From a virus, in IMG/VR virus record IMGVR_UViG_3300021964_000708, positions 1-20,606 of that record: a stretch of DNA of 20,606 bases. One strand, given 5' to 3'. The notes below the pieces were generated by a model, which was given only the letters and a program-made list of their open reading frames with translations, ran no database searches and was not told where the DNA came from. Within the stretch, counting starts at the first letter, position 1, and the number at the start of each line of letters is the position of its first letter. This document shows positions 959 to 15,130 of this stretch, one piece after another. The translations under genes and the position numbers were made by a program.

Positions 959-1163
959 CTTCTATATACTCATTTACATGTTCACAAATGGTAACACCAT
1001 AACCATTTTCTTCTCTTAACATTTCGTATTGTACACAGCTTTTACAATCTTGTACATACCAACCCATGTGTCCATGAGTAATTATTGCTCGAGGATATGG
1101 TAACGTGCGTTGAAAGCAAAGCGGACATGTATAATTAGACGATGTCAAGCGCTTGGGCCTCAT
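945..1163 (-). CDS. Small zinc-ribbon protein of unknown function
   Basis: A 72-aa protein with a four-cysteine metal-binding pattern: CPLC at residues 13-16 and CKSC at 40-43, with two histidines (H30, H32) between them, typical of a zinc ribbon or treble-clef fold. The C-terminus is acidic (EYIEDDNI). I do not recognise a named family. It sits between gp47 and gp46, overlapping the end of gp47 by 29 bases and the start of gp46 by 14, so it is probably translated by coupling from the same message. A partner role in the resection complex, or nucleic-acid binding, is an inference from position only. The ATG at 1163 lies well inside gp47; a TTG at 1148 would shorten the protein by five residues without touching the cysteine knuckles. 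Confidence 0.75.
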   Translation of the reverse strand: MRPKRLTSSNYTCPLCFQRTLPYPRAIITHGHMGWYVQDCKSCVQYEMLREENGYGVTICEHVNEYIEDDNI

Positions 1164-2199
1164 TCATTAAATCACCCATCTCATTCTTAATACGATCTTT
1201 ATTCAAATCGGTTTCTACATTATCAACGTATGTATTCAACAATTCAGTAGTGTCTTCTACATCAATTCCGGAATCATCGACATTCTCGCCGATAAACTCT
1301 TGAAAGTTTTCTGCAATTTTAAGTTCGTTAATATCTTGAGACTGAATTCTATCTAAAAATCTTTCAAAGACAAAGTGATCAGACTTATGTGCCACAACAA
1401 CCTTAACAAACTTTTTAGACAAATCTCCTAATTCGTATGTGCCATTATAATCTGTTTCACGGTCATTGTACACTATTTTTTTAAATAAATTATGAGGGTT
1501 CCGCACGGGCGTGAGCTCACGGGTGGAAGTATCAAGTACATGGAAAAACTTAGGATCTCCAGCATCTGCCCATGATAATTCCATTTGATTACCAAGATAG
1601 TAAATATTATCACGTTGTGATTTTGTATGGAAGTGCCCAGACAAAACCATCTCAAATCGTTTAAAGAGAGCTGCGTCCATTCCAGTCGTTGACTTTATAC
1701 CACGCATCATATCAAATCCATTTAATTCTAGGTGGGCACCAATAATACTAGCTTTAGTATTTTGTAACCAGTCTACGGTAGATTGATAATTTTCATTATT
1801 AATCCAAGGGACAAGGCCTATATCTAATCCTTCATACTCTAATACAGTTGGCTCCATAATAATATGGATATTATTCATGTAGTGACCAAGGAACTCTTTT
1901 AAAGAACATAAGCCATTTGTGTTTTTATAATAAACATCATGATTGCCAGGAATGATATCCATTTGCATACCATTATCTCGGAGAGGATCTAAAAAGATTC
2001 TACGATTATGGTTGATAGCTTTTACAGATATTTGTTTGCGATTATCATAGTAATCGCCAAGATGAATAACTTGTTTAATGTTATGCTCTTGGCAGTACGG
2101 AAAGAATGTATCCGTATAAAATCTTGTTTGATTTTCTAGAAAAATATCTGCAGAGTTACGAACATCACAATGTGTGTCATTAAGAATTGCTATCTTCAT
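1135..2199 (-). CDS. 47: gp47 recombination endonuclease subunit, Mre11/SbcD-like nuclease
   Basis: The 354-aa metallophosphoesterase nuclease that partners gp46. All the phosphoesterase motifs are present in order: DTH at residues 8-10, GDYYDNRK at 48-55, GNHD at 85-88, a histidine at 156 (GAHLELNGF, strikingly like T4 VGHWELNGF) and GHFH at 188-191. These bind two metal ions and cut DNA ends. The length is close to that of T4 gp47. The C-terminal third is acidic and variable, as expected of the Rad50-binding and capping region. The ATG at 2199 lies within the last 20 bases of the AbrB-like gene upstream and has no strong ribosome binding site (the leader is A-rich), suggesting translational coupling. 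The gene runs into the zinc-ribbon gene and then gp46, forming one recombination block. Confidence 0.96.
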   Translation of the reverse strand: MKIAILNDTHCDVRNSADIFLENQTRFYTDTFFPYCQEHNIKQVIHLGDYYDNRKQISVKAINHNRRIFLDPLRDNGMQMDIIPGNHDVYYKNTNGLCSLKEFLGHYMNNIHIIMEPTVLEYEGLDIGLVPWINNENYQSTVDWLQNTKASIIGAHLELNGFDMMRGIKSTTGMDAALFKRFEMVLSGHFHTKSQRDNIYYLGNQMELSWADAGDPKFFHVLDTSTRELTPVRNPHNLFKKIVYNDRETDYNGTYELGDLSKKFVKVVVAHKSDHFVFERFLDRIQSQDINELKIAENFQEFIGENVDDSGIDVEDTTELLNTYVDNVETDLNKDRIKNEMGDLMNEAQALDIV

Positions 2200-2344
2200 A
2201 TTTTTTTATACTAAAAGTTCCGTCATTGTTATCAATCCATTGAAGTGTATCTCCAACTTCCCAACCCATATCATCTAATGTATTTTCATCAAATGGTAGT
2301 ATTAATTCACCATCAGAATCTTCTATGAGGTTAACCGTAGTCAT
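2180..2344 (-). CDS. 54-aa AbrB/SpoVT-like small protein
   Basis: A short gene of 54 codons with ATG at 2344 and TAA at 2180-2182. The start overlaps the gp55 stop codon as ATGA, and its end overlaps the gp47 start by 20 bases, filling exactly the space between those genes. The product begins MTTVNLIEDSDGELILPF and contains DDMGWEVGDTLQW (residues 24-36), followed by a short strand ending TFSIKKYE. The pattern of strand, 'GW..GD.L.W', 'DG.F.I.K' resembles the swapped-hairpin AbrB/SpoVT/MazE DNA-binding fold and small proteins of the same type in marine cyanophages. Such proteins bind DNA as dimers or act as antitoxins; which applies here cannot be seen, and no toxin partner is visible. The coding case rests on the perfect fit between neighbours and the coherent protein pattern. 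Confidence 0.78.
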   Translation of the reverse strand: MTTVNLIEDSDGELILPFDENTLDDMGWEVGDTLQWIDNNDGTFSIKKYEDSNS

Positions 2345-2913
2345 TCTAAAAACTCCGTCAAGTCGGAATCAGCATTAACTTTACGTTTTTTACGTTCAGT
2401 TTTTACAAATTCTTTTACTTGTCGATCCGATTCTTTAACTTTATCAATACGGCTTTTCAATGTATCAACAAACGCAGCTTCAACTGATAAATCTGATCCA
2501 TCAAAACTTTCAATAAAATCTTCTATTCCGGCCCTAGATAAGAATTTTAACTTAACGTCTTGTTGTTTTTTCTCTTTAGCAATTCTACGCAAGAATGCAT
2601 ACCATGATATCTGAGTAAAATACGCAAAGGCATTAGGCTTACCAGTTCGTGTTGCAGTTTCTATATTATAATTTTCAATAGCCTTCAAACAATTTTCAAC
2701 CGCATCCATTACCATTTCTTCTCGATATGTGTACCGAATAAAATTAGATTTATGTGATAAACCTTCGGCAATTCTTAAGAAGCATTCAGCAATATAATTT
2801 GGAACAATAGGTGTAGGTTGTTTTTTCTCTTTAGCTAAATTAGATTCTTTTACGTATTCAACAACCGCCTTTGAAAAATCAGCGTTATTTACGTAATGTG
2901 CTTGTTTTTTCAT
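2341..2913 (-). CDS. 55: gp55 late-transcription sigma factor
   Basis: A 190-aa homologue of T4 gp55, the small sigma-family protein that lets host RNA polymerase recognise TATAAATA late promoters together with gp33 and the sliding clamp. The match is visible in the N-terminal YVNN, in IAEGLS followed by a FxxYTxxxxEMxxDAxE stretch (about residues 48-72, the sigma region 2-like core), and in the AYFTQISWYAFLRRIAKEK helix (about 97-115). The last residues DLTEFLE parallel the T4 tail SLDFLYE, which binds the gp45 clamp. The ATG at 2913 was chosen because the protein then begins as in T4 (M, a few polar residues, YVNN) and GGAT lies about nine bases upstream; a TTG at 2925 would add four residues. 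The stop overlaps the next gene as ATGA. A sigma70-like promoter lies just upstream, so the gene is probably expressed before late genes. Confidence 0.95.
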   Translation of the reverse strand: MKKQAHYVNNADFSKAVVEYVKESNLAKEKKQPTPIVPNYIAECFLRIAEGLSHKSNFIRYTYREEMVMDAVENCLKAIENYNIETATRTGKPNAFAYFTQISWYAFLRRIAKEKKQQDVKLKFLSRAGIEDFIESFDGSDLSVEAAFVDTLKSRIDKVKESDRQVKEFVKTERKKRKVNADSDLTEFLE

Positions 2914-3066
2914 AATGTTATCCAATTAATATTAAGTATATTATACAACAATTAGTTATACATGTACACCAATATAATTAGTTTCGAAAAGAAAAAATAA
3001 AGATGTACAAATCCTAGTTTACAGTGTAAAATAAGTATGTACCGCCGGGGCGAAGGAGTATACCCA
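2914..3066. other. Largest gene-free stretch: intergenic regulatory region with a 13-base palindrome
   Basis: This 153-base gap between the Sm-like gene and gp55 has no convincing open frame. Besides the promoter candidate it contains a perfect inverted repeat TTTACA-G-TGTAAA at 3018-3030, two copies of TGTACA (2963-2968 and 3004-3009), and a GC-rich patch near 3042-3055 (CCGCCGGGGCG) that stands out in AT-rich surroundings. The GC-rich patch can form only a weak, imperfect hairpin on the minus strand and is not followed by a clean T run, so I do not call a terminator. The palindrome has the form of an operator or short-range regulator site, but no ligand can be named. Confidence 0.4.
2940..2968 (-). 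promoter_or_regulatory. Candidate sigma70-type promoter for gp55
   Basis: On the minus strand a perfect -10 hexamer TATAAT (2945-2940) is preceded, after a 17-base spacer, by TGTACA (2968-2963), which matches the -35 consensus at four of six positions. It lies 27 bases upstream of the gp55 ATG in a 153-base gene-free stretch. Expression of the late sigma factor from a host-type promoter before late transcription is what T4 biology would predict. The assignment is by pattern only; AT-rich sequence can give chance -10 matches. Confidence 0.45.
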
Positions 3067-3438
3067 TTAATGTAAATAAGTTATAAGGGTTTCTGCAGAA
3101 TCTTCTAGACTTTCTGACGTGTCAAATATTTCAGGTCCCTCTTGTGATGCCATTACTTCATTAACAACATCGGCAAAATAATCTAATGCAGTTTGGCTAG
3201 GCGTTGCTATAGCCAATATTTGATCAGCATTTAGTGCTTGCAAAGAATTTAAACTTTCTTGCATTGCCATCCATGGAGTAAATGTGTAATACTTATAACC
3301 ATTATCTTCGGCCGAAAGCTTAGGTTCAATTTTAAGGGATTTACGAATAACTAAATCTCTATTATTTTCATTATCCCATTCAACAACTTCGCAAATAATT
3401 TCTTCTTGGTTAGTCAGTTTAAAATGCTTAATATCCAT
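3067..3438 (-). CDS. Small protein with Sm/Lsm-like appearance, function unknown
   Basis: A 123-aa protein beginning MDIKHFKLTNQEEIICEVVEW. The pattern of a short strand (FKLTNQEEIICEVVEW), a second strand (DLVIRKSLKIEPK), a YTFTPWMAMQES stretch, and a later hydrophobic strand-helix (ADQILAIATPSQTALDYF) resembles the small Sm-like proteins common in marine T4-like phages. Sm folds bind RNA, as in Hfq. The C-terminus after about residue 98 is acidic and looks disordered. The start codon shares one base with the uvsW stop (TAATG), and a GGTGGGG sequence lies shortly upstream, so it is probably translated by coupling with uvsW. Assignment to the Sm superfamily is inference from strand pattern and remembered relatives; the open reading frame itself is secure. 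Confidence 0.8.
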   Translation of the reverse strand: MDIKHFKLTNQEEIICEVVEWDNENNRDLVIRKSLKIEPKLSAEDNGYKYYTFTPWMAMQESLNSLQALNADQILAIATPSQTALDYFADVVNEVMASQEGPEIFDTSESLEDSAETLITYLH

Positions 3439-5362: not shown

Positions 5363-5863
5363 CTATACTAGCTCAAAATATGAGAATCTAAACGAAGCAG
5401 AAAACGTAATGAACGTATCTCCGCCTGATGTAGATTCAAATTGTATATCTCCAATTGCTGTTGGGGTACAATCTAAATATTTAATTTGTTTAGTCACATT
5501 GTTATGGCTCGATAAGATCATTAACGATATATCTGCAAAATGCGCTGGCAAATCATCGGACCTATTTAATGGACTAACCATATCGGTATCTAATATTCTA
5601 CGAATCCACTCATACATTTCTGTATAACCTTCTAAGTCTTCGTCTAATATAACATTTGCCGATAATTCATTGAATGTTAGTTTATCACCGGGTTGTGGTA
5701 TCCCAGCAATTTTTCTGAATGGAACTTCTACCGCACTAATCAACATTCCAGGATGGGTAAATGATTGACAAAAGAATTCCAAATTTGGATAATTCTTCCG
5801 GTCAAGCACCATCTTAAACGAGGTGGGCTGAAGATAATTGAAATTTGTAGTTAAATCTGCCAT
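5363..5863 (-). CDS. gp19-family tail tube-like protein
   Basis: A 166-aa protein beginning MADLTTNFNYLQPTSFKMVL. It has the strand pattern of the T4 gp19 tail tube family: an early FKMVLDRKNYPNLEFFCQS strand, a VPFRK segment, 'DKLTFNELSANVILDED' comparable to T4 'DRTFDDWTVTVMNDE', an EMYEWI helix, and a C-terminal hairpin 'YLDCTPTAIGDIQFES' comparable to T4 'IKGLWPTNVGELQLDW'. Tube proteins stack as hexamers to form the DNA conduit. It may be the tube itself or a relative such as a tube initiator or terminator; the window contains no other candidate to compare. The ATG at 5863 is preferred over an upstream in-frame start at 5908, which would run back through the terminator hairpin. A late promoter lies immediately upstream. 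Its position downstream of gp23 differs from T4, where gp19 precedes gp20. Confidence 0.85.
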   Translation of the reverse strand: MADLTTNFNYLQPTSFKMVLDRKNYPNLEFFCQSFTHPGMLISAVEVPFRKIAGIPQPGDKLTFNELSANVILDEDLEGYTEMYEWIRRILDTDMVSPLNRSDDLPAHFADISLMILSSHNNVTKQIKYLDCTPTAIGDIQFESTSGGDTFITFSASFRFSYFELV

Positions 5864-5868
5864 AACTT

Positions 5869-5876
5869 TATTTATA
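5869..5876 (-). promoter_or_regulatory. T4-type late promoter (TATAAATA)
   Basis: An exact TATAAATA octamer on the minus strand, the only sequence required by gp55-directed polymerase. It lies between the gp23 terminator and the tail tube-like gene, with only five bases between the octamer and the ATG. With the usual T4 spacing the transcript would start at or within a base or two of the ATG, giving an almost leaderless message. Confidence 0.75.
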
Positions 5877-9036: not shown

Positions 9037-9237
9037 CTATCCTTTAAAGCTTTTAACGAAAGCTTCTGCAGCTTTCATCGCTTCTTTTTCTGAGCGATAA
9101 GCATCTAGGTAATCTCCATCAACATACGCGATGAATTTGCCTTTATCTTTGTGCACCATAATTGATACACCTTTAACTTTTTTATCTGCCACGTGTTCAC
9201 CAGGTGGCATTTTTCTTAGTGATTTAAATGTTTTCAT
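9037..9237 (-). CDS. 66-aa lysine-rich protein, unknown (first gene of head block)
   Basis: A 66-aa basic protein beginning MKTFKSLRKMPPGEHV, with GVSIMVHKDKGKFIAYVDGDYLDAYRSE forming a likely beta hairpin (about residues 23-50, quoted here only in parts: VSIMVHKD, GKFIAYVDG) and a C-terminal helix EKEAMKAAEAFVKSFKG. I do not recognise a named family. It occupies the place of the small prohead core genes 67/68 that precede gene 21 in T4, but T4 gp67 is strongly acidic while this protein is basic, so equivalence is not supported. A late promoter lies 13 bases upstream of the ATG, and no good ribosome binding site is visible in the short leader. It is probably made late with the head proteins. 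Confidence 0.75.
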   Translation of the reverse strand: MKTFKSLRKMPPGEHVADKKVKGVSIMVHKDKGKFIAYVDGDYLDAYRSEKEAMKAAEAFVKSFKG

Positions 9238-9250
9238 ATTTTTACTTAAT

Positions 9251-9258
9251 TATTTATA
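9251..9258 (-). promoter_or_regulatory. T4-type late promoter (TATAAATA) for the head block
   Basis: An exact TATAAATA octamer on the minus strand, 13 bases upstream of the 66-aa gene. It is the only exact late promoter between the large structural gene and gp23, so it probably drives the 66-aa gene, gp21, gp22 and gp23. With T4 spacing the leader would be about eight bases and lacks a Shine-Dalgarno-like sequence. Confidence 0.8.
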
Positions 9259-14867: not shown

Positions 14868-15101
14868 CTATATTCCTAAAGCAACTGCTAAAACAGTTGC
14901 TTCTTCTTTTGAGACCATAGTTTTTGTTATAATATTACCGTTTTCGTCAATTTGATCCATAGTTCCATCTGGGTGGAAAATCATTGTCTCACCGGTAGAA
15001 TCTGAAATTACTAATTGGGCTGCAGCACCAGGACGAGCAGTCTCTGACGTTTCTACGAATGCCGCCACTCTACTAAATGCTCTGTTCTTTGATAGTGCCA
15101 T
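14868..15101 (-). CDS. 77-aa protein of unknown function
   Basis: A 77-aa protein beginning MALSKNRAFSRVAAFVETSE. The first 20 or so residues look helical and basic; then follows a short beta-rich stretch (AAQLVISDSTGETMIFHPDG, about residues 26-45) and acidic 'DQIDENGN', ending in a small hydrophobic helix (EEATVLAVALGI). I do not recognise it. It is the first gene behind a perfect late promoter, with a good GGAG site about seven bases before the ATG, and lies eight bases before the 1839-aa structural gene, so it is probably a minor virion or assembly protein working with that product. No signal peptide or membrane segment is apparent. Confidence 0.8.
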   Translation of the reverse strand: MALSKNRAFSRVAAFVETSETARPGAAAQLVISDSTGETMIFHPDGTMDQIDENGNIITKTMVSKEEATVLAVALGI

Positions 15102-15122: not shown

Positions 15123-15130
15123 TATTTATA
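15123..15130 (-). promoter_or_regulatory. T4-type late promoter (TATAAATA)
   Basis: An exact TATAAATA octamer on the minus strand, 21 bases upstream of the 77-aa gene. With T4 spacing the transcript would begin near 15117, leaving a 16-base leader that includes GGAG, a conventional arrangement. It should drive the 77-aa gene and the 1839-aa structural gene. No terminator hairpin is visible between the 411-aa gene and this promoter, so read-through from upstream is also possible. Confidence 0.85.

Follow-up and report, generated by a model that had tools for sequence, protein, structure and literature searches.

The 54-codon frame between the genes for gp55 and gp47 in a contig of a marine T4-like phage (IMGVR_UViG_3300021964_000708, analyzed over its whole stretch of 20,606 bases, hereafter the window) is a genuine gene of the phrog_661 family. 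We suggest that its product is an exchangeable accessory protein with an acidic version of the AbrB fold, acting most likely as a dimeric, DNA-mimic-like decoy; for this reading as a whole, we estimate a probability of about 0.4. The existence of the gene, its predicted fold, the slot in which it lies, one clear exchange, its accessory status and the acidity of its product are supported.

A genuine gene between gp55 and gp47

An earlier note on this DNA had fitted the frame exactly between gp55 (an ATGA overlap) and gp47 (20 shared bases). Both overlaps were confirmed, and the strand, which had been left unstated, is minus. The relevant features are as follows:

2180-2344, minus strand: gene for an acidic phrog_661 protein of predicted AbrB fold (codons 2344-2183, stop 2182-2180, 54 aa)
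2341-2925, minus strand: gp55 late sigma factor (phrog_234, 1.2e-49)
1135-2199, minus strand: gp47, SbcD-like recombination nuclease subunit (phrog_100, 7.7e-92; PF00149, 2.3e-10)
2341-2344, minus strand: ATGA, in which the start of the cargo gene overlaps the gp55 stop (read from the sequence)
2180-2199, minus strand: 20-base overlap, in which the gp47 start reads the end of the cargo gene, stop included, in a different frame
2353-2356, minus strand: GGAG, Shine-Dalgarno-like, within the last gp55 codons, 8 nt before the cargo ATG
2940-2968, minus strand: sigma-70-like TGTACA-17-TATAAT upstream of gp55 (10 of 12 positions, a consensus match only)

The cargo gene, as we call the gene held between gp55 and gp47, starts with the ATG at 2344-2342 on the minus strand; in the plus-strand reading, the interval 2180-2344 has three internal stops. 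There is one copy of the gene in the window. The start of gp55 is listed as a TTG at 2925, and by inspection the in-frame ATG at 2913 is likelier. It should be noted that the gene upstream of gp55 (3067-3438) weakly matches an Sm-like family (PF16243, 0.0076, under the cut-off) and that, by eye, similar small genes lie near AbrB-like genes in loci L156 and L011.

The window protein is a member of phrog_661 (6.4e-12 over residues 3-51, PHROGs v4 profiles), as are all 29 of the 29 members of alignment A1, in which it is included; PHROGs v4 gives the function of this family as unknown. For 20 slot genes, compared after the last eight codons had been trimmed to remove the gp47 overlap, pN reached pS in 1 of 190 pairs, and the median pN/pS was 0.60. 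The dN/dS values for the closest pairs of slot genes ranged from 0.03 to 0.49 in the 25 of 30 pairs where they were computable, and the value for the window and locus L125 was 0.13. Related frames at the gp55-gp47 junction are under purifying selection; conservation and dN/dS, which had been proposed earlier as a check on this gene, bear it out, and that the frame is a genuine gene, beyond chance, is confirmed. That the frame arose by chance or is junk, as its short length and an end constrained by the gp47 reading might suggest, can practically be dismissed given the purifying selection seen even with the overlap trimmed, the phrog_661 membership and the recurrence of the frame in 22 of 140 listed junctions.

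The gp55-gp47 junction as a cargo slot

Using gp47 (best 80 of 83 loci) and gp55 (best 80 of at least 600) of the window as seeds, we collected 140 distinct junctions, counting once those identical across the slot together with its 150-base flanks. Because this set was seeded by the window's own genes, with the best 80 taken for each, the proportions represent near relatives and not all marine T4-like phages. The gap between the two genes was 20 bases or less in 85 of the 140 listed junctions, 38 of which had exactly a 4-base overlap; in the others, it was 54 bases (one junction), 130-200 bases (32), 200-800 bases (18) or more than 800 bases (four). An AbrB-like frame of 50-79 residues, starting on the gp55 stop, was found in 22 of the 140, including the window; thus, the recurrence of a gp55-linked copy, raised in the earlier note, was observed. 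Other junctions contained an epimerase, a sulfotransferase, a tryptophan halogenase, an AAA kinase or a NUMOD3 frame, and some of the contents are small proteins with, by eye, a membrane-bound look. Among the listed junctions with gp47 at least 80% identical to that of the window, 10 of 12 carried the AbrB-like frame, one (L133) had no insert, and one (L140) had a frame with a NUMOD3 motif.

The same place is occupied in T4, where the interval between genes 55 and 47 contains a-gt.5 to a-gt.2, mobB, a-gt and 47.1 (T4 record), that is, accessory genes and a homing endonuclease, but no gene annotated as AbrB-like. In Phage C48C1, the nearest named relative, 64 bases separate the gp55 and gp47 matches, which is too short for a cargo gene, and this phage does not appear by name in the records that tblastn matched with the cargo gene. 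That exchangeable cargo occupies a slot at the gp55-gp47 junction is well supported. As a separate observation, the NUMOD3 frame of L140 (3600-4171) lies between a leftover gp47-like start and the intact gp47 start, an arrangement that looks, by eye, as if the insertion had duplicated the gp47 start region.

The ATGA coupling is also found where gp47 directly follows gp55, indicating that it belongs to the junction and not to the cargo. Since gp47 often starts on the gp55 stop when there is no cargo, any gene in the slot is placed for translation in step with gp55. When a gene overlaps a core gene tightly, this can therefore be due to the slot, not the cargo, which warns against inferring function from coupling. 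Counts of Shine-Dalgarno-like sites at the junction starts are only suggestive, given the loose purine pattern used: among the listed junctions with gp55 identity of at least 60%, the pattern was present at 31 of 47 gp47 starts with a gap of 0 or less, at 22 of 41 cargo starts, and at 16 of 41 gp47 starts located behind cargo.

The clearest exchange is seen in the comparison of the window with locus L022. Past its first 60 bases, gp47 is 98% and 97% identical, and those first 60 bases are 93% identical. Identity drops to 56% across the slot and is 73% over the final 400 bases of gp55; a crossover close to the start of gp47 would be expected to leave such a profile. Near relatives differ in their slot contents, and the pattern agrees with recombination between the conserved ends of gp55 and gp47. 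In a phylogenetic tree of the family, built from few columns and having several long branches, the gene from the window clusters (support 98/88) with four members located elsewhere in their genomes; five changes are required to explain slot membership on this tree, and the starred branches force at least two. The tree leaves out L227 (domain under 38 residues) and the slot near-copies L027, L030 and L039, and L243 is labelled as clamp-loader-linked in it though the contig ends before the next gene. A single origin of the slot copies was considered as well; it is at odds with the five changes, yet one clade is not rejected (p-AU 0.21), and hence the argument for repeated exchange is carried mainly by one pair, the window and L022.

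The gp55-gp47 junction is only one among several placements of phrog_661. Using tblastn, we found relatives in 101 phage records, named Synechococcus phages or cyanophages, and in the five regions inspected the gene is in other places, e.g., near baseplate genes in S-RIM8 and Syn9 and among glycosyltransferases in S-CAM9. The distance from the relative to gp55 is about 70 kb in Syn9 and S-RIM8, and the distance to gp47 is about 92 kb in S-CAM3 and 73 kb in ACG-2014d. A scan with the pattern WIDNNDG yielded 54 distinct family frames from the best 80 of 103 loci, and a scan of this scope misses many slot members. The gp55-gp47 slot accounts for two of the listed frames (L007 and L186, the latter sharing its contig with L125). 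Among the listed loci on virus contigs, the downstream neighbor was the gp44 clamp loader in 7 of 50 cases and gp47 in two; the neighbor genes of some loci were picked by a crude longest-frame method. The place directly upstream of gp44 is a second recurrent one for the family (L201, L233, L235, L236, L242, L245 and L249), with the linkage established by reading the locus for L201, L233, L236 and L242 and by the length of the next frame for the other three. Upstream in these four loci are a gp45-like gene (named by eye) and a SpeD-like gene; L201 has them adjacent, and in L233, L236 and L242 two further genes are interspersed. The SpeD naming follows S-adenosylmethionine decarboxylase matches in 5 of 51 upstream neighbors.

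Fourteen contigs were searched over their whole length. Seven of these, five with AbrB-filled slots and two with other family loci, had one copy each. No copy was present in the other seven, four measuring 94-155 kb and three 59-67 kb, in which the slot is empty or has other contents; any of the fourteen contigs may be a fragment. These results support the view that the cargo gene is accessory. A bacterial source was also sought by scanning genome contigs with one 7-residue pattern, which gave three loci and would miss relatives that do not have the pattern; it was not retained.

Predicted fold and charge

The AlphaFold2 model of the window protein, folded as a monomer from 29 sequences, has a mean pLDDT of 87.6 and a pTM of 0.53. 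In the Foldseek search of the PDB, the top rows were AbrB-N, SpoVT and an AbrB model, and all five rows with probabilities of 0.97-0.99 were AbrB, SpoVT or MazE, with MazE (1mvf) aligned at 1.6 A and a TMt of 0.82, while no match in this search had an E of 0.001 or less (best 0.068). Against viral models, Foldseek matched many phage proteins, some of them named SpoVT-AbrB. VIA-align returned 22 entries, and 15 of the first 19 (Z from 6.6 to 3.8) were titled AbrB, Abh, SpoVT, MazE, VapBC1 or Sso7c4, the other four being C68, C56 and, twice, a histone-like protein; no Z reached 8 in this search, and a Z under 8 may, as the tool warns, represent merely a common arrangement. We consider the prediction that the protein has the AbrB/MazE/SpoVT fold, with a swapped-hairpin subunit, to be well supported, in agreement with the earlier proposal of an AbrB/MazE-like fold, and the protein is presumably a homodimer.

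Assignment by sequence to Pfam or NCBIfam was tried for the window protein and four other slot proteins and gave sub-threshold matches only. The window protein resembles the swapped-hairpin domains of AbrB, SpoVT and MazE (PF04014) in predicted fold and in length, but it scores below the PF04014 cut-off (14.5 bits vs. 24.7, E 0.036), is acidic instead of basic, and has no arginine. A sequence-profile search of the PDB likewise gave no usable assignment, with a designed double-psi barrel as the best row (1.1e-5), followed by a formylmethanofuran dehydrogenase subunit (1.2) and, third, SpoVT (E 1.7). Accordingly, the fold is argued from the model.

The charge of the protein is unusual for this fold. 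The window protein has a net charge of -12, and the 68 distinct family domains, one of them truncated (L227), range from -12 to -4, with a median of -8, 43 having no arginine; these charges were calculated from sequence. As controls, we used bacterial PF04014 domains from 30 loci (L258-L287), omitting L285 (a 28-position match in a 772-residue frame) and counting L284 though it is below the family cut-off. The resulting 29 domains range in net charge from -2 to +7 (median +2), with four arginines at the median. Since the control pieces span 35-46 residues and the family pieces up to 54, part of the gap in net charge comes from length. Per residue, the median charge is -0.143 for 35 family frames vs. 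-0.014 for 335 small frames of the same contigs, and the family median falls at the 6th percentile of this background, which makes it extreme but not unique.

In the joint alignment, three columns with basic residues in 62%, 41% and 59% of the controls have acidic ones in 72%, 87% and 68% of family members, respectively, and another column, basic in 62% of the controls (chiefly arginine), is occupied by hydrophobic residues in the family and never by a basic one. By inspection, we take the first basic control columns to correspond to R8, R15 and R23/R24 of AbrB. Conversely, the last strand has, close to its end, a column (K48 in the window) with a basic residue in 96% of the family vs. 17% of the controls, so a basic patch remains. 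One AbrB study lists R8, R15, R23 and R24 as DNA contacts, and reports that the R15A replacement lowers DNA affinity only five-fold (PMC4022651). At the columns equated with these contacts, the 68 domains are mostly acidic or hydrophobic, and the window protein lacks arginine.

Possible function and expression

Because the basic columns of AbrB and MazE are acidic or hydrophobic in the family, protein contact, and not DNA binding, is the mode of action that we infer. A dimeric acidic decoy would occupy a host DNA-binding or regulatory protein and would bring an optional, host-dependent benefit. This reading provides a structural hypothesis that can be tested for a family of phage proteins of unlisted function and, if it is true, the retention of a DNA-binding fold with an inverted basic face would be a plain way for a DNA mimic or decoy to arise. 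Examples of phage DNA mimics are T7 Ocr, in which acidic surface residues are described as abundant, and SPO1 Gp44 (PMC2806950, PMC8208478); like phrog_661, they are phage-encoded, and we liken them by these descriptions. No paper on the cargo gene or on the gp55-gp47 slot was recognized among the titles and abstract openings surveyed; the word AbrB is absent from the main text of PMC2993671 and PMC3037559 and occurs once in PMC7824862. Against the decoy reading, its partner and function are conjectural, the basic K48 column persists, and the glutaredoxin fusions described below fit tethering equally well. A more specific version, which we regard as quite doubtful, is that phrog_661 represents a phage-adapted, charge-inverted AbrB branch, that is, an acidic decoy that would block host AbrB-type regulators through mixed dimers, or a DNA-binding defense or nucleoid protein, and would move among core-gene slots of marine T4-like phages.

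The alternative that survives best, albeit an unlikely one, is a small domain for dimerization or tethering, in the service of a phage enzyme and with no regulatory or counter-host role. It draws on the AbrB-like domains located N-terminal to glutaredoxin in L011 (1055-1468; PF00462, 6.1e-13), in L227 (37-351; 1.6e-12), where only the end of the domain is within the listed frame, near the contig end, and, by near-identity to L011, in L012 (1243-1656). The domain also forms the C-terminus of proteins of 174-207 aa (L015, 3518-4141; L020, 2404-2976; L253, 3605-4129) and the N-terminus of proteins of 152 aa (L194, 1737-2195; L200). However, most of the 54 listed distinct frames are free-standing and their neighbors are varied, such that no common client is seen among the listed loci.

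Next in order is an orphan MazE-like antitoxin that would neutralize the toxin of a host toxin-antitoxin defense, with no toxin of its own; this, too, we consider unlikely. MazE is among the best structural matches, a relative in DSL-LC02 lies directly behind a gene annotated as an antitoxin, one of 51 listed upstream neighbors matches a Phd-like antitoxin family, and one of the 29 members of A1 also matches phrog_4681, a toxin-antitoxin antitoxin (4e-4). MazE-type antitoxins grip the toxin by a C-terminal tail. No such tail is present in the window protein, which has six residues past the last strand, encoded in an end that is also read as gp47. Neither is there a cognate toxin gene beside the cargo, the immediate neighbors being gp55 and gp47, or a toxin match among seven window proteins (Pfam).

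The interpretation put forward in the earlier note, i.e., a DNA-binding regulator made with gp55 and tuning late or host transcription, holds for the fold and for the gp55-linked recurrence; the step from gp55 linkage to a late-transcription regulator is not supported, and we regard such a regulator as improbable. The predicted AbrB/SpoVT fold, the co-orientation and overlap with gp55 in the 22 junctions, and the recurrent place before gp44 (7 of 50 listed neighbors) would suit it, given that the T4 gp45 clamp acts in late transcription (a note in the T4 record). Nevertheless, the slot holds unrelated cargoes or none in the listed junctions, the gene has no copy in the seven contigs (59-155 kb) with no AbrB-like gene in the slot, and its relatives in four named cyanophages are about 70-92 kb from gp55 or gp47. 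Moreover, there is no TATAAATA nearby, and the basic residues named as DNA contacts in AbrB are missing from a protein with no arginine and a net charge of -12, the corresponding columns of the family being acidic or hydrophobic.

Sigma-70-like matches in the region around the one upstream of gp55 are only mildly in excess (26 vs. 18.6 in shuffles, sd 3.8). A late promoter before gp55 was considered and rejected: the window has three copies of TATAAATA, a number close to chance expectation, and the gp55 cluster has no copy. The cargo gene may be transcribed early, along with gp55 and gp47. TGTACA followed by a 17-base spacer is common to three promoter-like sites on the minus strand (2968-2940, 1472-1444 and 1056-1028). 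The TATAAATA boxes are also on the minus strand (5869-5876, 9251-9258 and 15123-15130) and, by inspection, lie just upstream of minus-strand frames that start at an in-frame ATG near 5863, at 9237 and at 15101, respectively.
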